Part shown: positions 20,060 through 49,512 of the stretch, piece after piece
How positions within the stretch are numbered: position 1 is the first letter of the stretch
Layout of the letters: each line of letters begins with the position of its first letter
Source of the DNA: Opitutales bacterium
GTDB taxonomy: Bacteria > Verrucomicrobiota > Verrucomicrobiia > Opitutales > UBA953
Direction: 5' to 3'
DNA length: 64,000 nucleotides
Assembly (NCBI GenBank): GCA_024697185.1
Contig: JAILGB010000013.1
Location: forward strand, 1 to 64,000
Position numbers and translations under genes: made by a program
Notes under the pieces: model-generated
The model's database searches: none
The model's input: the letters and a program-made list of their open reading frames with translations, nothing else
What the model was told of the DNA's origin: nothing

Positions 20060-21028
20060 TCAGCGGCGACGGCGGCGCGTTCCCGCCAATGCCAACGCCA
20101 GCGTTCCCGCCCAAAGCCCAAAAAGCGACGGCTCGGGAATCATCGACCAGCCCATGAGCGACATCAGTCCGATCTCCGCCTCCGTCGGCGAACGGTGCGA
20201 GACTCCGTTGACGAGCGCGTATTGCATCAAGGCATCCGGATCGCTCTCGGCGTCGATATGCGAAAAACTGCTACCTTCAATATAGGACGCAGGATTGTAA
20301 ACCCACAAATCCGTGCCGTCCAAAAGAATTTTTTCACCCAAGGCGACGACGGGAGCGTTATCGCTTGCCTCCGCTTTTTCGACCAAAGTTTGCGCATCGC
20401 CCTCTTTTCTCAACAAACTGTCAAACGCCGTATAAAGGACCGTTTCTCCGTCTGCCATAAAAGTGCAGTCCGATTGCAGATTGGAAGAAAATCCGATGCC
20501 GTGACCCAATTCGTGCGTGAGCACACTTTGAAAATCATAAAGCTCGCTCCATCCCGAAAACGGTGTCACACCATAATAAAACTTATCGACATAATCGTAG
20601 TTGCAAAAAATCTGGACGTCATAGGAGCCGGTCTCAGAGCCTGTATTGCTTACACCGTCGCGCCAGATTTTTTCCGCTAAAGTCGAAACCTGCTGGAAGC
20701 CTGCCTCCAGCCGATACGACATCGGCGATCCCGCATAAGCCAAGGCTCCGCTACCGCTTTCCCAAAAGACTCCGACGGTCAGCGTGCGGCCGGGCGTATT
20801 GAGAATAAGATTGTCCCAAGTGGTCAACGAACGCACGACGGCGTCAATCTGCGTCTGCGTCCATGTGGCGACCGAACCGCCCGCCAAGGTGTTAAAACCG
20901 TTTTCGCCCTCGTCTTGAAAAAAACATTTGAACGTATCGCCAATCACAACGACCTGCTCTGCCAGAAGTCCCGCGGGAACACAAAACGCAAATGCGGACG
21001 CCGCAATCAAAAGTTTTTTAAAATTCAT
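20060..21028 (-). CDS. PEP-CTERM protein with metzincin-like zinc site
   Basis: Exported 322-residue protein. Signal peptide at 1-22 (MNFKKLLIAA ... GLLA). Near 175 is LTHELGHGIGFSS, the HExxHxxGF zinc helix of metzincins, and about 90 residues on is a Met-turn-like LMSLMGW. The usual third ligand after the Gly is not obvious, so activity is uncertain. The C-terminus is a PEP-CTERM sorting signal: IPEPS, a hydrophobic helix, then a five-Arg cluster, which directs an exosortase to process and export the protein. The DNA for this tail is a near copy of that in the GDSL gene at 34,413. Probably a surface or matrix-associated protease-like protein. Confidence 0.8.
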   Translation of the reverse strand: MNFKKLLIAASAFAFCVPAGLLAEQVVVIGDTFKCFFQDEGENGFNTLAGGSVATWTQTQIDAVVRSLTTWDNLILNTPGRTLTVGVFWESGSGALAYAGSPMSYRLEAGFQQVSTLAEKIWRDGVSNTGSETGSYDVQIFCNYDYVDKFYYGVTPFSGWSELYDFQSVLTHELGHGIGFSSNLQSDCTFMADGETVLYTAFDSLLRKEGDAQTLVEKAEASDNAPVVALGEKILLDGTDLWVYNPASYIEGSSFSHIDAESDPDALMQYALVNGVSHRSPTEAEIGLMSLMGWSMIPEPSLFGLWAGTLALALAGTRRRRR

Positions 21029-21105
21029 AAGTATGTTAATTCTACCTATGAACGGTAACGGATGCAATTTTTTATCTTATACCACGAGCGCGTTCCCGTC
21101 CCGCC

Positions 21106-22608: not shown

Positions 22609-23226
22609 CTATTGTTTTTTACTCAGTTCGTCAATATCCGGATAGTCGCCCTCTTCGCGATTGCCCATAAAGCGATTTCGAAGATCTTTGTAATAAGAAA
22701 TCAGATTGATCAACAAAAAATAGAAGACTCCGAGGCAAATCCCGCAGTCGGCTACATTAAAACTCGGCCAATGCATATCGATGAGCGGGAGTTTGAAATC
22801 CAAAAAATCGATGACAAAACCGTGAAAAATCCTATCGACAAGATTTCCGATAATCCCGCCGCAGAGCAAACCCATCGGCAACTGGACCTCCTTTTTTTTG
22901 ATCTCAAGCGTGCGGCGAAAATAAAAAAACATGCCGAGGCAGCCGATCGCGAAGAGGCTCAACAAGAATCGTTGTCCCGAAAACATCGACCATGCGGCGC
23001 CATAATTGCGAACATGGACAATATTAAAAAAACCGGGAATGACGACTAACGGATCGTGTCCGTAGCCGTCACCGAATGTCGGGAAATCTAATGTCAGCGC
23101 AATCAGACACTTGCTGAACTGATCTAAGACCAAGACCGAAAATAAACTTTTCCAAAAAAGCGAATACGCGCGGGAACGACAAAACGCCGACACCGCAAAC
23201 TCGAGTATCTTTGAAAAAATCAACAT
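22609..23226 (-). CDS. lspA: Lipoprotein signal peptidase (signal peptidase II)
   Basis: Inner-membrane aspartic protease that removes the signal peptide of lipoproteins after lipidation. 205 residues, longer than the usual ~165 because of N- and C-terminal extensions. Four helices. The two catalytic Asp are in GGIIGNLVDRIFHG and FNVADCGI, and VRNYGAAWSMF is the other signature. It starts 3 bp after the DksA-like gene, in the order ileS-dksA-lspA found in several Verrucomicrobia. Clients in the window include the lipoproteins at 21,106 and 47,375. Confidence 0.95.
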   Translation of the reverse strand: MLIFSKILEFAVSAFCRSRAYSLFWKSLFSVLVLDQFSKCLIALTLDFPTFGDGYGHDPLVVIPGFFNIVHVRNYGAAWSMFSGQRFLLSLFAIGCLGMFFYFRRTLEIKKKEVQLPMGLLCGGIIGNLVDRIFHGFVIDFLDFKLPLIDMHWPSFNVADCGICLGVFYFLLINLISYYKDLRNRFMGNREEGDYPDIDELSKKQ

Positions 23227-23229
23227 CGA

Positions 23230-24492
23230 TTAAAGATTGTCGATATCGCTGCTGTCCAATTTGTCAGAAGACGGCGCGTTCGAATCGTCATCGTCGTCTC
23301 TCTGGGTCGGACGATCGCCATCGTCCATAATGTCCGTAATCGTCGTCTCAGAGACCTTGCGACGCGCCATCTGCGCCTCTTCTTTTTCAACCTTGCGCTG
23401 CTCTGCCGCGCCACGGCGGGCGTAGGGAACTTTTTTGAGACGTTCCATCGAAATCGGCTTGCCGGTCACTTCGTCGATCCCGTATTTGCCGTTGCGCATA
23501 CGTTCGATCGCCGCGTAGATTTCGCTCAAGATACGCTTAACGCTCTCGATGCGAACAATAGCGACATCGCGGTCAAAAGCCTCCGTGTGCGTGTCCGCGG
23601 TATGATCGCCAAGTGCAGCAAAATCACCCGTTTCCTCCTTGGACTCACGAACATTGAGCTTGGCATTATAATCATCGAGCATTTTTTGATTTTCGTCGCG
23701 CAACTTCAAAAGTTCCTCGTAAAGATGAATCCATTTTTTAGGAATCATCTTCATCTCATCCTCCGCCGCCGTCGCCGAAAACGGATCGAAACCGCCGAAC
23801 AGATCCTTGACCGAAGCCGGACCGACCGCCTTGTCGCTCTTTTTTGCCTTGGGCAAAGTCAACAAAACAGTAATCTTGTCATGGCGCACCGGCTCGACAG
23901 AAATCTCCTCAGGATTATAACGCTTAAAAACCTGCGGTCCCACCAAATCAAGCAAAATCTGCAACTCGCGCAAAGAATATGCATAACGGGAACACATTTT
24001 TAAAGTCTCATTACTCGACCTGACATCGCGCGGAACGGCAATCTCCTCTTTTTGCGCGGGAACGGGAGACTTCACTGCCGCCTTTTTCGCGGGAACGGAA
24101 GGCTTCGCCGCCACTTTCTTCGCGGGAACGGAAGGCTTTACCGCCGCCTTCTTCGCGGGAACGGAAGGCTTTACCGCCGCCTTTTTCGCGGGAATGGAAG
24201 GCTTCGCCGACGCTTTCTTCGCAGGAACGGAAGGCTTCGCCGACGTTTTCTTCGCGGGAACGGAAGGCTTCGCTGCCGCCTTCTTCGCGGGAACGGAAGG
24301 CTTCGCCGCCACTTTCTTCACGGGAGCGGAAGGCTTCGCCGCCGCTTTCTTCGCGGGAACGGAAGGCTTCGCCGCCGTTTTCTTCGCGGGAACGGAAGGC
24401 TTTACCGCCGCCTTTTTCGCGGGAACGGAAGGCTTTACTGCCGCTTTCTTCACAAAAACGATTTTTTTTGCAGGCTTTTTATTTTTTGCCAT
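23230..24492 (-). CDS. DksA/TraR-like protein with long KPSVPAKKA repeat arm
   Basis: Residues 18-149 are twelve tandem 11-residue repeats (consensus AAKPSVPAKKA), a basic, Pro-rich disordered arm like that of AlgP or histone H1. Residues 280-385 resemble DksA/TraR: a coiled coil (LRDENQKMLDDYNAKL ... IESVKRILSEIYAAIERM), then GKYGIDEVTGKPISMERLKKVPYA. The zinc-finger Cys are all replaced (GID, TGK, ARRGAAEQ), so it is a Cys-less DksA variant. The tail is acidic (DDDDDS, SSDIDNL). Probably binds RNA polymerase's secondary channel; the basic arm may bind nucleic acid (inference). Between ileS and lspA, likely one operon. Confidence 0.8.
   Translation of the reverse strand: MAKNKKPAKKIVFVKKAAVKPSVPAKKAAVKPSVPAKKTAAKPSVPAKKAAAKPSAPVKKVAAKPSVPAKKAAAKPSVPAKKTSAKPSVPAKKASAKPSIPAKKAAVKPSVPAKKAAVKPSVPAKKVAAKPSVPAKKAAVKSPVPAQKEEIAVPRDVRSSNETLKMCSRYAYSLRELQILLDLVGPQVFKRYNPEEISVEPVRHDKITVLLTLPKAKKSDKAVGPASVKDLFGGFDPFSATAAEDEMKMIPKKWIHLYEELLKLRDENQKMLDDYNAKLNVRESKEETGDFAALGDHTADTHTEAFDRDVAIVRIESVKRILSEIYAAIERMRNGKYGIDEVTGKPISMERLKKVPYARRGAAEQRKVEKEEAQMARRKVSETTITDIMDDGDRPTQRDDDDDSNAPSSDKLDSSDIDNL
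24046..24441 (-). repeat. Twelve 33-bp tandem repeats carrying the iterated motif
   Basis: Twelve in-frame 33-bp units encode AAKPSVPAKKA variants in the DksA-like gene. Almost every unit contains GCGGGAACGGAAGGC, i.e. one copy of the window-wide motif (VPA in the protein). A few copies are degraded (GGGAATGG, GGGAGCGG, AGGAACGG). Tandem coding repeats like this can vary in number by slippage. Confidence 0.9.
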
Positions 24493-24513: not shown

Positions 24514-27342
24514 TTACGCGTTAAATTTCAGATCCGGATATTTTTCCTTGAGGGCTTCGAAACAGCGCGGCGAGACGGCGCCAAAATCGCCGGCTTCGAC
24601 AAGTTCGGGAACCCAGCGCCAGGAGCGTGGGCATTTTTTGTAGCCCAAACTTGCGGCTGTAACGGCATCGACGGTCAAAGGCGTTCCCGCGGGAGCGTCT
24701 TTAAGGGTGACACCCGAAACGTTAAACGTCTCCTCAAGGAGCGACTCGTATTTTTTAAGCAGCGCGAAGGTTTCGTCTGCGGGATCAGCGCTGATGGAGA
24801 CAACGGCTTCGAGCGGCTGTCCGATCACTTTTGCGTCGCGGAGCTCCTGGAGTTTGAGATTGATCGCGTCGCGCGCTTTGAGAAGGGCGTCAAACTCGCG
24901 AACCTCCTCTGTGAACGCGAGTTCTGGCGCGAGAACCGGCCACGGCTGGAGCAAAATGGAGTTTTCTGTATATTCGCTCTTTGCCGTAAAATAGCCCCAT
25001 GCTTCATCTGTTGTGAACGGAAGCATCGGCGCGAGCATTTTCAGATAGGCGCTAAAAATGAGGTGGATTGCCGTCTGGGAGGAGCGGCGTTCCCGCGAGC
25101 TCGCGGCGAGAGTATAGAGGCGATCCTTCAACAGGTTGTGATAAGTCGCCGAAAGCGTCTCCACTGTAAACGCGTCGATTGCGGCATAAGCTTTATGAAA
25201 CTCGTAGTTTTCATAATTTTTTGTGACTTCTGCCAAGAGCGCATAAAATTTGCCGACAGCCCATTTGTCAATCGCGGTCAATTCCGCCACGGGAACGGCG
25301 TCCTTGGCGGGATCAAAATCGTAGAGATTGGACAACTGGTAACGGATCGTGTTGCGGATATTGCGGTATTGTGTCGCCGTCGCGTCAAAAATCCCGTCGG
25401 AAATCGGAATGTCGCCCTGGTAATTTTCAGACGCGATCCAAAGACGCACGATGTCCGCACCGTATTTTGAAACATAACCGTCCGCCGTTTGAGGTTTGCC
25501 GTCGGATTTTGAAATTTTTTGACGAGTTCCTTCATTGACGACAAAACCGTGTGTGATCACTTTTTTATAGGGTGCTCCGCCAAAATTGATGACAGATGTC
25601 CACAGGGAAGACTGGAACCAGCCGCGGTGCTGGTCGCTGCCTTCGAGGTAGAGATCCGCCGGGAACGCCAAATCGGGATTGCGCTTCAAGACGGCAGCGT
25701 TTGACGAACCCGAATCGATCCAAACGTCCAAAGTGTCCGTTCCCGCGACGAGTTTGTCCGGGCTCGGCCAATTGGCGGGCAACGCAACGCCCTCGAGGAG
25801 TTCTGCCGGGGATTTTTCAAACCAAATATCCGTTCCCGCGACGGCGATTTTGTCCGCCAAGGCGCGAATGACATCGGCATCGAGGAAGGCTTCGCCTGTC
25901 GCCACATGATAAAATACGGGAATCGGGACGCCCCAGGAGCGTTGGCGGGAAATACACCAGTCGGGACGACCTTCGACGGCGGCGCGGATACGGTTTTCAC
26001 CGTTGGCGGGCAGCCAGGAGACTTCAGAAATTTTTGCGAGGGCCTTTTGACGCAATTCGTCCTTGTCGAGCGCGACAAACCACTGGTCCATCGCACGAAA
26101 GATCACGGGAGTCTTGGAGCGCCAGCAATGGGGATAGCTGTGAACGATTTTGCCGGTTTTCAAAAGGCGGCCGCTTTTTTCGAGCAACGCCAGCACGCCG
26201 CTGTTTGCGGGGCATTTGCCGTTGACATCGAGAACAGAAAGTCCGACAAGCTCCGGCGGGACTTGGCCGTCGTCCGCATAGACACCTTCATCGTTGACGG
26301 GGCAATAAATATCGATCCCGTAGCGCAGACAGGTCTGATAGTCCTCCATACCGTGACCGCCAGCCGTATGGACACAGCCCGTTCCGCTGTCGGCGGTAAT
26401 GTAGTCGGCGCAAACAACAGGAGACAGCCGTTTGCAGAACGGGTGCTCCGTCTTGATGCCTTCCAGCTCTTTGCCCGAATATTTTTTGCCCTTGGCGGCG
26501 CCGGCAAGTTCGCAGTCGGCGATAAATTTGTCCGCGAGCGCGGAGGCCACGATGTAGGTTTTGCCGTTATGGAGAATTTCGCAGTATTCAAAATCCGGGT
26601 GCAGCGCGATCGCCATATTGGCGGGAATCGTCCACGGCGTCGTTGTCCAAATCACAAAATTACGAGCGCTTTCCGCGGGAACGCCCGTCTCCGGGAACGC
26701 GACCCAAATCGATGTCGATGTATGATCCTTGTATTCGATTTCCGCCTCGGCAAGCGCCGTCTTGCACGGGATCGACCAGTAAACGGGACGTTTGCTGCGA
26801 TAAATCAAGCCCTGCCCGACCATATTGGCAAATGTGCGGACAATATCGGCTTCATAGGCGGGATTTTTAGTTTTGTATTCCGCCGCCCAATCCGCCAAAA
26901 TGCCGAGACGGCGAAACTGGCGACGCTGCTTTTCAATAAAGCTCTCCGAAAAATCCGCACAAGCACGACGGACTTCGAGCGCCGAAAGCGCTTTTTCCTT
27001 AGCGTGAAGTTCCTTCATCACCTTGTGCTCGATCGGCAGGCCGTGGCAGTCCCAGCCGGGAACATAAGGCACACGATAGCCGTTCATCGTCTTATAGCGC
27101 ATGATGATGTCCTTCAAAAGTTTGTTGAGCGCCGTGCCGATATGGACATCGCCGTTCGTAAAAGGCGGACCGTCATGCAAAATAAAGGACTTGCCCGTCG
27201 CCTTATTCAAATCCTGAAGGCGGTGATACAGATCTGTTTTTTCCCAAAACGCAATGCGCTCGGGCTCACGCTGGGTCAAACGAGCCTGCATCGGGAAATC
27301 CGTCACGGGGAGATTTAATGTGTCCTTAAATTTGATAGCCAT
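24514..27342 (-). CDS. ileS: Isoleucyl-tRNA synthetase
   Basis: Class I synthetase charging tRNA-Ile, 942 residues, normal bacterial size. PPFTNGDVHIGTALNKLLKD (about 60-80) is the HIGH region (HIGT here). TTTPWTIPANMAIAL marks the CP1 editing domain, which hydrolyses Val-tRNA-Ile. KISKSDGK near 605 is the KMSKS loop. The C-terminal zinc-finger Cys of the E. coli enzyme are absent, as in several other bacterial forms. First gene of the ileS-dksA-lspA-thi4 run. A CATAAT-like -10 lies about 30 bp upstream of the ATG, without a convincing -35. Confidence 0.97.
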   Translation of the reverse strand: MAIKFKDTLNLPVTDFPMQARLTQREPERIAFWEKTDLYHRLQDLNKATGKSFILHDGPPFTNGDVHIGTALNKLLKDIIMRYKTMNGYRVPYVPGWDCHGLPIEHKVMKELHAKEKALSALEVRRACADFSESFIEKQRRQFRRLGILADWAAEYKTKNPAYEADIVRTFANMVGQGLIYRSKRPVYWSIPCKTALAEAEIEYKDHTSTSIWVAFPETGVPAESARNFVIWTTTPWTIPANMAIALHPDFEYCEILHNGKTYIVASALADKFIADCELAGAAKGKKYSGKELEGIKTEHPFCKRLSPVVCADYITADSGTGCVHTAGGHGMEDYQTCLRYGIDIYCPVNDEGVYADDGQVPPELVGLSVLDVNGKCPANSGVLALLEKSGRLLKTGKIVHSYPHCWRSKTPVIFRAMDQWFVALDKDELRQKALAKISEVSWLPANGENRIRAAVEGRPDWCISRQRSWGVPIPVFYHVATGEAFLDADVIRALADKIAVAGTDIWFEKSPAELLEGVALPANWPSPDKLVAGTDTLDVWIDSGSSNAAVLKRNPDLAFPADLYLEGSDQHRGWFQSSLWTSVINFGGAPYKKVITHGFVVNEGTRQKISKSDGKPQTADGYVSKYGADIVRLWIASENYQGDIPISDGIFDATATQYRNIRNTIRYQLSNLYDFDPAKDAVPVAELTAIDKWAVGKFYALLAEVTKNYENYEFHKAYAAIDAFTVETLSATYHNLLKDRLYTLAASSRERRSSQTAIHLIFSAYLKMLAPMLPFTTDEAWGYFTAKSEYTENSILLQPWPVLAPELAFTEEVREFDALLKARDAINLKLQELRDAKVIGQPLEAVVSISADPADETFALLKKYESLLEETFNVSGVTLKDAPAGTPLTVDAVTAASLGYKKCPRSWRWVPELVEAGDFGAVSPRCFEALKEKYPDLKFNA

Positions 27343-34412: not shown

Positions 34413-35969
34413 CTATTTTTTACGCCGGCGGCGCGTTCCCGCCAATGCCAGCGCCAGCGTTCCCGCGAGCCAGCCGAACGCCGAAGGCTCCGGAATCGTC
34501 AGCGCCTCCGGTGCGTAAGCAGCCCCCAGTTCAAAAGAAACGGCCGCCAACTCGCAATCGGCAAACTGACTGGAGCCGATGTCGCCGAACAACAAGGTGT
34601 TCTTGTAAGTGGAAACACCGCCAACCGCGCCCAGGCCTTCACCGATCAACTGGTCGCCGAGCCAGATGTAAAAACCGCTCGAAACACCGCGCTCGCTCCC
34701 GTCAATCCAGGCGATTGTAAAATCGTTAAAATCATCGGTGAACGAAACGGACTCATACGGATCACCGACGGCGGTCCCGTAAAGCAATGTCGTATTCCAA
34801 TAAACGCCGTTTTCGCGAAGATAAAAAAGTCCCGCTTCCGCGCCGTTGCCGACAATAATGCCAAACTGATTGTTTTGGTTGTTTCGCTCGGTCATTTTGA
34901 CAGAAAACGACAAGGTCAGTTCCTGCGCAACGCTCAAATCGCTCCAAACCAAACGCGTGTCAAAACCGCCGGCGGCGGCTGTATTGAAAACCAAATTTCC
35001 CGCTGCGTTTGTCGTGATGCCGGAGGCAGCGGTCGTAAAGGTTTTTTCCACGCCCGCAATGCTCGTCTTGATCGTCGGCTTGCTGGCAGAAGCCGAGCCA
35101 AAATTGAGCTGTGAAGACAAATTGGCTGCCGCACGGCGTTCCAAGCCCACCGTCCGCTGTCCGACGCCCAAAGCGCGTGCAATGTTGCCGGCGAGGATCA
35201 GTTCACCCTGCGCCTGCGGGTGAAGCGAATCATAAGTGTGAACGCCGTTTGTCGGGTTGAAACCCGTTGTGATGTCGTGATAGACGACTGTCGAAGTCGC
35301 CGTGTTCCAAGCGCCGCTTTCGACGGTCGATTTCAAAAGCGCGTTGTATTCGCCCGGAGCCGTTCCCGGATTGAGACCGTTGCTCCAACTGCCCTGCCCG
35401 GACGGCAAAAGGGAAAACATATGGACCGTGACGTTCGCATTTTTTGCCTGGAGCACCTCGACGATCGCCTTTTGGTTCGCCAGCAAATTGTTAAAATCCC
35501 GATGATCGTTGTTGCGGGACAAATCGTTGATCCCGATCAAAACCGTTGCCGTATCCGGCAGCGCGGAATAATAGGTGTCGATCCAATCCGACAAACCCTT
35601 GCCGGTCGTTGTCGTGCCACTCGGGAACGTGCTCCCGTTGCGTCCGTCTGTCGTTCCCGTCGTGATCCACGGCGCGTCCCAACCGAAATGCCCCTCGTTC
35701 GTGTTGTCGAAAGTCTCCCCGCGATAATTGGTAACCAGCGCCGAAGAAGTCGCACCGCCAAAATAATTTTTCATCGAACCCACAGGATTGTAGGCGACAT
35801 CGTTGTCCACAAAATTTTTCCAAAGCGAATAGCGATAGGAAACGGCATGTGTGCCGTCTGACTGGGTTATCGAATCACCGATAAAAACAATGTTGCCCAA
35901 ATCCGTTCCCGTCGCGGGAACACAGGGAAGAAGAGCGGCGGCAGCAAAAAGCAATGCAATTTTTTTCAT
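34413..35969 (-). CDS. PEP-CTERM protein with GDSL/SGNH esterase domain
   Basis: 518 residues with a signal peptide (MKKIALLFAAAALLPC). The SGNH domain has IVFIGDSITQSDG (block I Ser), TVLIGINDLSRNND (block III Asn) and YDSLHPQAQGE (catalytic Asp-x-x-His). Residues 300-490 form a beta-rich LamG/concanavalin-like domain, and the C-terminus is a PEP-CTERM signal (IPEPS, hydrophobic helix, Arg/Lys cluster). Exported and probably anchored or released by an exosortase. It probably de-esterifies polysaccharide or mucin sugars (inference). The DNA for the anchor shares a 41-bp near-identical stretch with the other PEP-CTERM gene. Confidence 0.88.
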   Translation of the reverse strand: MKKIALLFAAAALLPCVPATGTDLGNIVFIGDSITQSDGTHAVSYRYSLWKNFVDNDVAYNPVGSMKNYFGGATSSALVTNYRGETFDNTNEGHFGWDAPWITTGTTDGRNGSTFPSGTTTTGKGLSDWIDTYYSALPDTATVLIGINDLSRNNDHRDFNNLLANQKAIVEVLQAKNANVTVHMFSLLPSGQGSWSNGLNPGTAPGEYNALLKSTVESGAWNTATSTVVYHDITTGFNPTNGVHTYDSLHPQAQGELILAGNIARALGVGQRTVGLERRAAANLSSQLNFGSASASKPTIKTSIAGVEKTFTTAASGITTNAAGNLVFNTAAAGGFDTRLVWSDLSVAQELTLSFSVKMTERNNQNNQFGIIVGNGAEAGLFYLRENGVYWNTTLLYGTAVGDPYESVSFTDDFNDFTIAWIDGSERGVSSGFYIWLGDQLIGEGLGAVGGVSTYKNTLLFGDIGSSQFADCELAAVSFELGAAYAPEALTIPEPSAFGWLAGTLALALAGTRRRRKK

Positions 35970-47787: not shown

Positions 47788-49512
47788 TTAGCAGGCTGGC
47801 TCGACTTGGGTTACAGGCAGTTCGGGAACGACTTCAAGAGCCGGTGCCGATTCCGCGGGAACGGCTTCGGGAGCTGATTCCGACTCTGCGGGAGTGACAA
47901 CGGAATCCGACTCCGGCTCTGCGGGAACAGCTTCGGGAGCCGTTGCCGGTTCTGCGGGAACGACGATTTCCACCGGCGCCACCTGCGCATTATTGTCGGC
48001 GGCGGACTCCGGCGTACCGAAGAAATTGACATGCGCGAGAGTGATCATCATCAGCCACGACAACGCCAAGCCGCCGAGCCCCATAACAATACCGGTTTTC
48101 GCCATGCCGTTTGTGTCCGTATATCCCGTCGCGTGAGCGAGAGCGTTGGGAGGTGTCGAAATCGGCAGGGACATCCCGAGCGAAGACGCAAAAGCCACCG
48201 AGACCAAAAGTGCTGTGACACCTCCGAGAGCAACCAGATTGTCTTGGCAGGCGATACCCACTGCACAGAGAATCGGAACGAGCAAAGTGGCTGTCGATGT
48301 ATGGCTCATAAAGTTTGCCATAAACAGACAGATCACACCGCAACCCATCATCAGGGCCGTCGGTGACCAGGTGTCAAACGGGATCGCATTGATCAAGTGT
48401 TTGGCGAGCCCCGTATCATTGAGGCCCACGCCAAGAGCGAAACCGCCGGCAACGAGCCAAAGCACGTCCCACGACATGCCGTTCAAATCTTTTGCGGTGA
48501 TAACGCCCGTCAAGGCAAAAACCGCCATCGGGATCATCGCAATCGCATTATCGTTGATGCCGTGGACATCCTTGCCCATGACCCACAAAATCACACAAAG
48601 CGCGAATGTGAAATAAACAATCAAAGCTCTCGGGCTCGTATCAAACTTCCCCGCGCCTTCAATGTTCAATTCCATCCTCTTCATCTTGATCGGATAAATT
48701 TTCATCAAAAGCACCCATGCGATCACCATCAAAACAATCACGTAGGGGATACCGAAAGCCATCCATTGCCCGAATGTCACGGGAGCGGCATTCAAATCAC
48801 CTCTGGCGACAGCATCATTCAACGCGCCGAGTGCGATTGCATTGGGCGGAGTGCCGATCGGCGTTCCCATGCCGCCAATATTGGCGCCGAGCGGGATTGC
48901 GAGAGCAAACGCCGCTTTACCGCGGTCGTCTTCGTCAAAAAGTTTGAGAACCGGCGCCAAAATCGCGAGCATCATCGCCGCCGTCGCCGTATTGGACATG
49001 AACATCGAAAAAACGGCGGTGATCAGCATCAAGCCCAAAAGCACAAGTTTCGGATTGGAGCCGAACGGCTTCAAAAGCACGCGCGCCAGATTCAAGTCCA
49101 TCTTATATTTTGTCGCAGCGGCGGCAAGGAAAAATCCGCCCAAAAAGAGCATGATGATCGGATTCGCGAATGTCGCCATCAAGCTTTTGTGGCTGATCAT
49201 TTTCACTCCGTCAACGCGGAACGGCAACAATGCCGAATCCGACATTGTGACAATCATCAAAACGATGATCATCATCGAAGTCGCCCAAATCGGGAACGGC
49301 TGCAAAATCCAAAACAGCGCCGCCAAGACAAAGACGGAAATCACACGGATTTCGACCGGGTTAATCGCACAATCTCCCACCAAACCCATCGATTCGTAAG
49401 GGAGATAAAGGCAAATCACTGCCGCGGCAATCGCGATCACGGCCTTAAAAAATGCCCCTGCACTCAAATTAAAGCCCTTTTTTACGGGCGTGTTTGAATT
49501 TCCTTCTATCAT
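47788..49512 (-). CDS. SLC13/DASS family anion:sodium symporter with repetitive tail
   Basis: 574 residues. Residues 15-505 are a divalent-anion symporter with two inverted halves, each with an SNT-type motif (MSNTATAAMMLAI and MSHTSTATLLVPI), plus GANIGGMGTPIGTPPNAIA and SLPISTPPNALA. Substrates in this family are C4-dicarboxylates, citrate or sulfate; dicarboxylate would suit an anaerobe. The last 60 residues are a Pro/Ala/Glu repeat (VPAEP, PAESES, VPAES) ending in VEPAC, unlike any DASS protein I know. Each VPA is encoded by an iterated motif or its relic, so the tail appears to have grown from the motif. Confidence 0.9.
   Translation of the reverse strand: MIEGNSNTPVKKGFNLSAGAFFKAVIAIAAAVICLYLPYESMGLVGDCAINPVEIRVISVFVLAALFWILQPFPIWATSMMIIVLMIVTMSDSALLPFRVDGVKMISHKSLMATFANPIIMLFLGGFFLAAAATKYKMDLNLARVLLKPFGSNPKLVLLGLMLITAVFSMFMSNTATAAMMLAILAPVLKLFDEDDRGKAAFALAIPLGANIGGMGTPIGTPPNAIALGALNDAVARGDLNAAPVTFGQWMAFGIPYVIVLMVIAWVLLMKIYPIKMKRMELNIEGAGKFDTSPRALIVYFTFALCVILWVMGKDVHGINDNAIAMIPMAVFALTGVITAKDLNGMSWDVLWLVAGGFALGVGLNDTGLAKHLINAIPFDTWSPTALMMGCGVICLFMANFMSHTSTATLLVPILCAVGIACQDNLVALGGVTALLVSVAFASSLGMSLPISTPPNALAHATGYTDTNGMAKTGIVMGLGGLALSWLMMITLAHVNFFGTPESAADNNAQVAPVEIVVPAEPATAPEAVPAEPESDSVVTPAESESAPEAVPAESAPALEVVPELPVTQVEPAC

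Follow-up and report, generated by a model that had tools for sequence, protein, structure and literature searches.

An iterated DNA word as the likely source of a repeat-unit core in the basic arm of a DksA-like protein from an Opitutales gut bacterium

In-frame expansion of lysine-rich repeats and hyper-abundant DNA words with dialects are both already known in bacteria. The former has been described for Hc2 (hctB) of Chlamydia trachomatis, whose basic lysine-rich repeats change in number in frame, with documented strain variation (PMC2848022). KPAA peptides of AlgP from Pseudomonas aeruginosa bind DNA in vitro (PMC9239181), and the lysine-rich repeats of actinobacterial TopA stabilise the hold of the enzyme on DNA (PMC7398561). 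Such words include the DNA uptake sequences (DUS) of the Neisseriaceae, which are about 10 bp long, occur in thousands of copies and vary as dialects between related species (PMC3630211).

The window analysed here, a stretch of 64,000 nucleotides (G000:C17:1-64000), belongs to the draft genome (G000; 1.59 Mb in 32 contigs) of an uncultured gut bacterium related to Candidatus Spyradosoma (Opitutales). A scan with the genus alignment placed in this genus the MAG named Candidatus Spyradosoma merdigallinarum and further Opitutales gut MAGs; the genus set comprises eight genomes, G000 and seven sisters, the sisters being metagenome assemblies. On the reverse strand of the window, between neighbours named by sequence resemblance as ileS (24514-27342) and lspA (22609-23226), lies an ORF of 420 aa (23230-24492) with an N-terminal repeat arm. 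The protein matches TIGR02890 (yteA) with E=1.5e-23 (83.6 bits, below the curated cut-off of 134), the dksA models at about 1e-7 and, in profile comparisons with solved DksA structures, 6ptg (1.5e-24) and 1tjl (1e-3). An AF2 model was built from a 25-sequence alignment (mean pLDDT 75; 59 with a 5-sequence alignment whose first row was a relative), and Foldseek compared it best with DksA2 of P. aeruginosa (4ijj_A, E 1.8e-5), followed by 7khi_M (7.9e-4) and 1tjl (1.6e-3). The conserved core (23233-23757, reverse strand) is predicted to form the two long helices, arranged as a coiled coil, and the C-terminal globular domain of the DksA fold, in agreement with the sequence profiles. Within it, a degenerate zinc-finger segment (23383-23472, reverse strand; zf-dskA_traR 15.5 bits, below the cut-off) has no cysteine at all and hence no C4 finger, while nearly all orthologues have one finger cysteine, rarely two. 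The cysteine-free finger and the best fold match to DksA2 place the protein in the superfamily and outside its zinc-binding branch.

The arm (150 aa) has a net charge of +40, compared with -8 for the remainder of the protein, and consists of K (28%), A (26%) and P (16%), the K/A/P-rich tandem composition of Hc2/AlgP-type proteins; the Pfam HC2 match of the protein (E=0.01) is below the cut-off. It is lysine-rich and probably disordered. With this charge and the TIGR02890, 6ptg and 4ijj matches, the description in an earlier note on this DNA of a basic arm on a DksA/TraR-like protein holds. Downstream of a non-repeat start, MAKNKKPAKKIVFVKKAAV (24436-24492, reverse strand), twelve in-frame 33-bp units run from 24435 down to 24040 on the reverse strand (residues 20-151) with the consensus AAGCCTTCCGTTCCCGCGAAGAAAGCGGCGGCG, which reads KPSVPAKKAAA; eleven units are of this type and the last is degenerate (KSPVPAQKEEI). 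TRF reports the array, the strongest of the window, at 24048-24451 (period 33, 12.2 copies, 87% matches, score 570), and the span of 24046-24441 given previously was correct to within about ten bases of the reading register. Nine exact copies of CGTTCCCG lie within the array on the reverse strand (24057-24427; at 24057, 24090, 24123, 24156, 24255, 24288, 24354, 24387 and 24420), appearing as CGGGAACG on the forward strand. Exact CGTTCCCGCG is found in 9 of the 12 units, units 4, 7 and 8 having one or two substitutions in the motif, so that the note was right about twelve 33-bp units and slightly overstated the matter in giving nearly all of them a motif copy. CGTTCCCGC is observed nine times in the array against 0.42 expected, and none of 1500 synonymous recodings reaches nine; since the units derive from each other, the array nevertheless counts as about one founding event. 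Between most pairs of units, 2-8 of the 33 sites are different, and the differences among eleven units are 14 synonymous and 13 nonsynonymous ones (0.35 per site). K1, P5 and K8 are unchanged across all 12 units, which, together with the value of 0.35 per site, indicates that the charge has been kept and the motif left free to decay, as in units 4, 7 and 8. A comparison of the exact array word with IMG/VR yielded 26 stretches, each with a single match and none with an array, which are probably unrelated.

The motif of the array is iterated throughout the genome. In the 424-kb sample of G000 from which the genome statistics were drawn, CGTTCCCG occurs 1429 times (3.4 per kb) against an order-3 expectation of 114, and the window has 194 copies on its two strands, where about 16 are expected by the same model. 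In the complete 1.59 Mb, a 10-mer form of the word is present 850 times on the forward and 845 times on the reverse strand, compared with 6 and 4 for the reversed control, and is hence hyper-abundant on both strands in the manner of DUS/USS systems. Motif density is 5.4 per kb in intergenic regions versus 3.1 within genes, a run of T or A stands beside 36 of 50 intergenic inverted motif pairs, and ComEC is found in 8 of 8 genomes of the genus. As CGTTCCCGCG, the motif is genus-specific, with 1695 copies in G000, 1275-2709 in five sisters, 269 in G001, 118 in G006 and 0-60 outside the genus.

This abundance has left an imprint on the encoded proteins. The 424-kb sample of G000 contains 246 VPA tripeptides, a 6.6-fold excess over the 37 expected, and 222 of them are coded by GTTCCCGCN, for which codon usage predicts 10%; among the main genes of the window other than the DksA-like gene, this holds for all 30. 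The tripeptide AGT, read in a reverse-strand frame, is found 256 times versus 43 expected, with 216 instances coded by GCGGGAACG. The VPA/AGT imprint is likewise seen in G002 and G003 and is weak in G001 and G006, where, in the sampled sequence, 7 of 19 and 5 of 19 VPA, respectively, are coded by GTTCCCGCN, far below the G000 level. PEP-CTERM-like C-termini (PEPSxFGxxAGTLALALAGTRRRRR) were observed on secreted proteins of the window (34413-35969 and 20060-21067). VPA-frame motif sites lie in a disorder-prone context in 7% of cases, compared with 1% of random positions. Proteins that resemble IF-2, LigA, FtsK, an RluB-type pseudouridine synthase, a YihY-type membrane protein and an ABC-F ATPase carry motif clusters in their tails or linkers, and in the window a second motif-bearing 33-bp array (TRF, 4.3 copies; 47823-47964, reverse strand) encodes the C-terminal tail of a DASS/SLC13-like transporter, which is acidic and of VPAE type. 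Given such varied proteins, including one with an acidic tail, the motif is not tied to nucleic-acid-binding arms. In the IF-2-like protein, a 39-bp motif-bearing array lies in the disordered N-terminal region (L107; G000:C15:12083-12284). Two further proteins were recorded on another contig (G000:C18): an RsfS-like protein (L123:16402-16523) whose N-terminal arm is of VPAKK type and has the one-mismatch word GTCCCCG in two units, and a predicted lipoprotein (L120:8384-8930) with a 36-bp x 15.2 array that encodes an acidic EEPAPAEEPAEV repeat and has no exact motif.

Whether the word founded the repeat or the arm can be approached through RpoD and the relatives. RpoD of G000 (L039:1825-3972, that is, G000:C10:13324-15471), in which the sigma domains were found, has an N-terminal 18-bp x 13.2 array encoding VPAKKA. 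The RpoD arm contains 6, 6, 4, 4, 3 and 3 motifs in the six motif-rich genomes and 0 in each of the motif-poor G001 and G006. In the five motif-rich sisters these copies are scattered and non-tandem, so that a state with the motif present and not yet tandem exists. Lysine-rich DksA and RpoD arms without the motif extend across most of the order; the motif-free DksA orthologues at that level have equally basic arms, which makes the arm older than the motif. Furthermore, G000 encodes a 102-aa lysine/alanine/proline histone-like protein (L129:7026-7332; G000:C5) with a cysteine-containing C-terminal end and about ten AAPAKK repeats, none of them with the motif; expansion therefore does not require it. 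The charges of the DksA and RpoD arms are correlated across 17 genomes (Spearman 0.78), a value that ignores kinship, comes from a DksA pattern that missed six genomes and is given no weight. The earlier proposal that the iterated motif founded the repeat gains support, as regards the V-P-A core of its unit, from the 222 of 246 motif-coded VPA, the independent RpoD array and the scattered RpoD motifs of motif-bearing sisters, and the 33-bp repeat, whose presence in relatives without the motif would speak against this origin, was found in no examined relative. A founding of the arm itself by the motif is not supported, given the equally basic motif-free orthologues, the motif-free PAKK array in G000 and the arm of G006, which is the longest of the genus (281 aa) although this genome is poor in CGTTCCCG. 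From these sequence comparisons, the motif is the likely origin of the V-P-A core of the repeat unit, and the evidence suggests that the word provided the material from which the repeat was made and was not why the arm exists.

G006 has an iterated word of its own, CACCACCAACCC, with 1275 copies (642 forward, 633 reverse) and none in its seven congeners; the copies are often clustered at a spacing of 14-18 bp near contig ends. In the N-terminal region of its DksA-like protein, CACCACCAA occurs 5 times versus 0.12 after synonymous recoding. These copies, partly related by duplication, are near-matches to CACCACCAACCC that read TTK in place of the TTNP of the full word; it is suggestive only that the G006 arm may carry the core of its own word. 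A wider generalisation, put forward tentatively and with less than even odds, is that species of the genus may have hyper-iterated words of their own, fully different between species as CGTTCCCG is from CACCACCAACCC, and that the word in use would enter the disordered arms of core transcription proteins, the DksA-like factor and RpoD, so that a switch of word would drag the arm sequence and its repeat structure along. If true, a signal at the level of DNA would here be driving the evolution of a proteome. To our knowledge, no uptake-word system has been known in this phylum.

The origin favoured here, with a probability of about 0.6, is that motif copies accumulated in an ancestral-type basic arm of a DksA/YteA-family regulator and that one 33-bp stretch was then multiplied. 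We infer the following order of events. The putative RNA-polymerase-binding regulator carries a lysine-rich, probably disordered N-terminal arm, as do its Opitutales orthologues and RpoD, and most species of the genus possess the hyper-abundant CGTTCCCG. Copies of the motif may have accumulated in the arm because one of its frames reads Val-Pro-Ala, which a disordered basic arm would tolerate. A single motif-bearing 33-bp stretch may then have given rise to 12 in-frame units by slippage or unequal exchange, with a parallel multiplication of an 18-bp unit in the RpoD arm. The arm most likely raises the affinity for DNA or RNA by nonspecific electrostatic attraction and so serves as a nucleic-acid tether that would hold the factor near the transcribing polymerase. 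Such a role is plausible for the DksA and RpoD arms by their likeness to the TopA lysine repeats and to the KPAA peptides studied in vitro, but the charge would suit polyphosphate or an acidic protein as the partner as well as RNA or DNA.

The rival closest to this account, possible and yet rather unlikely, is ordinary low-complexity slippage, in which PAKK arms grow and shrink by themselves and the motif merely happened to lie within the copied stretch. The motif-free AAPAKK array of G000, a tandem run of KPAA in the arm of RpoD from G010, which lies outside the genus and has few motifs, and the precedents of Hc2 and AlgP are all in line with it. It accounts poorly for the motif being present in at least two separate regulator arms, DksA and RpoD, and in several other arrays; in the 424-kb sample of G000 the motif lies in the units of 12 of 31 TRF arrays versus 2.7 expected by position, an excess that is inflated because several of these arrays are merely two or three clustered motif copies.

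If instead selection acted on the peptide, a KPxVPAKKA module would have been favoured and the motif would be a by-product of codon choice, as the invariance of K1, P5 and K8 in 12 of 12 units and the reduced nonsynonymous change could be taken to indicate. This is highly improbable, since codon usage predicts GTTCCC for V-P in about 10% of cases and 90% is observed for VPA in sampled G000, since the motif count of the arm is matched by none of the 1500 synonymous recodings, and since the rate of GTTCCCGCN should then be equal in the motif-poor G001 and G006, where it is much lower. The array might instead function as DNA, for example as a strong uptake-signal or protein-binding cluster, its coding being secondary, which would agree with the presence of ComEC in all eight genomes and with the motif density and inverted intergenic pairs flanked by T or A runs, which resemble the Neisseria DUS. 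The units, however, keep their frame and their lysines, and in the three units where the motif has decayed the basic residues have stayed, which makes such an element very unlikely. A copy number mis-resolved in assembly is conceivable for a draft in 32 contigs with sister genomes that are metagenome assemblies; as the units are individually distinct, the array keeps the reading frame and its contig runs normally through ileS and lspA, an artefact is very unlikely.

Compared with known systems, the core of the G000 protein shares fold and sequence with DksA2 (4ijj) and Bacillus YteA (TIGR02890), to which it adds the N-terminal 150-aa repeat arm. DksA2 of P. aeruginosa is cysteine-poor in the finger, a further likeness, whereas the finger of the G000 protein is without any cysteine. 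With Hc2 the arm has in common basic K/A/P/T repeats in a protein that binds nucleic acid, a property that for the DksA-like arm is suggested by analogy; Hc2 is histone-like and no polymerase factor, and the part of the source available describes no genome-wide iterated word (PMC2848022). AlgP likewise has a disordered K/P/A tandem repeat of about 150 residues on a helical domain, but there it is the C-terminal tail of an unrelated helical protein with a unit of 4 aa, versus 11 here (PMC9239181). TopA also carries lysine-rich repeats on a chromosome enzyme; it is a topoisomerase with C-terminal repeats, and the accessible text describes no iterated motif (PMC7398561). Like CGTTCCCG, the DUS lie inside genes and in intergenic inverted pairs near terminators, but their dialects differ by one or two bases, whereas CGTTCCCG and CACCACCAACCC are wholly different; in the excerpts of the DUS report, no tandem-repeat arm is reported for Neisseriaceae (PMC3630211). 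A partial literature search found no description of an iterated word and a repeat arm combined in a polymerase factor, or of a complete word change between congeners; it found nothing on lysine-rich DksA arms and a single mention of Spyradosoma, and no published work on CGTTCCCG was among the matches listed. Uptake-type words are generally regarded as something that proteins tolerate; in G000, the word accounts for most copies of one tripeptide in the sampled part of the proteome and appears as the repeat unit in the arms of two proteins central to transcription. Since one congener combines the same arm with a word that is wholly different, the question of whether a DNA signal shapes protein repeats can be put to the test by comparison alone.
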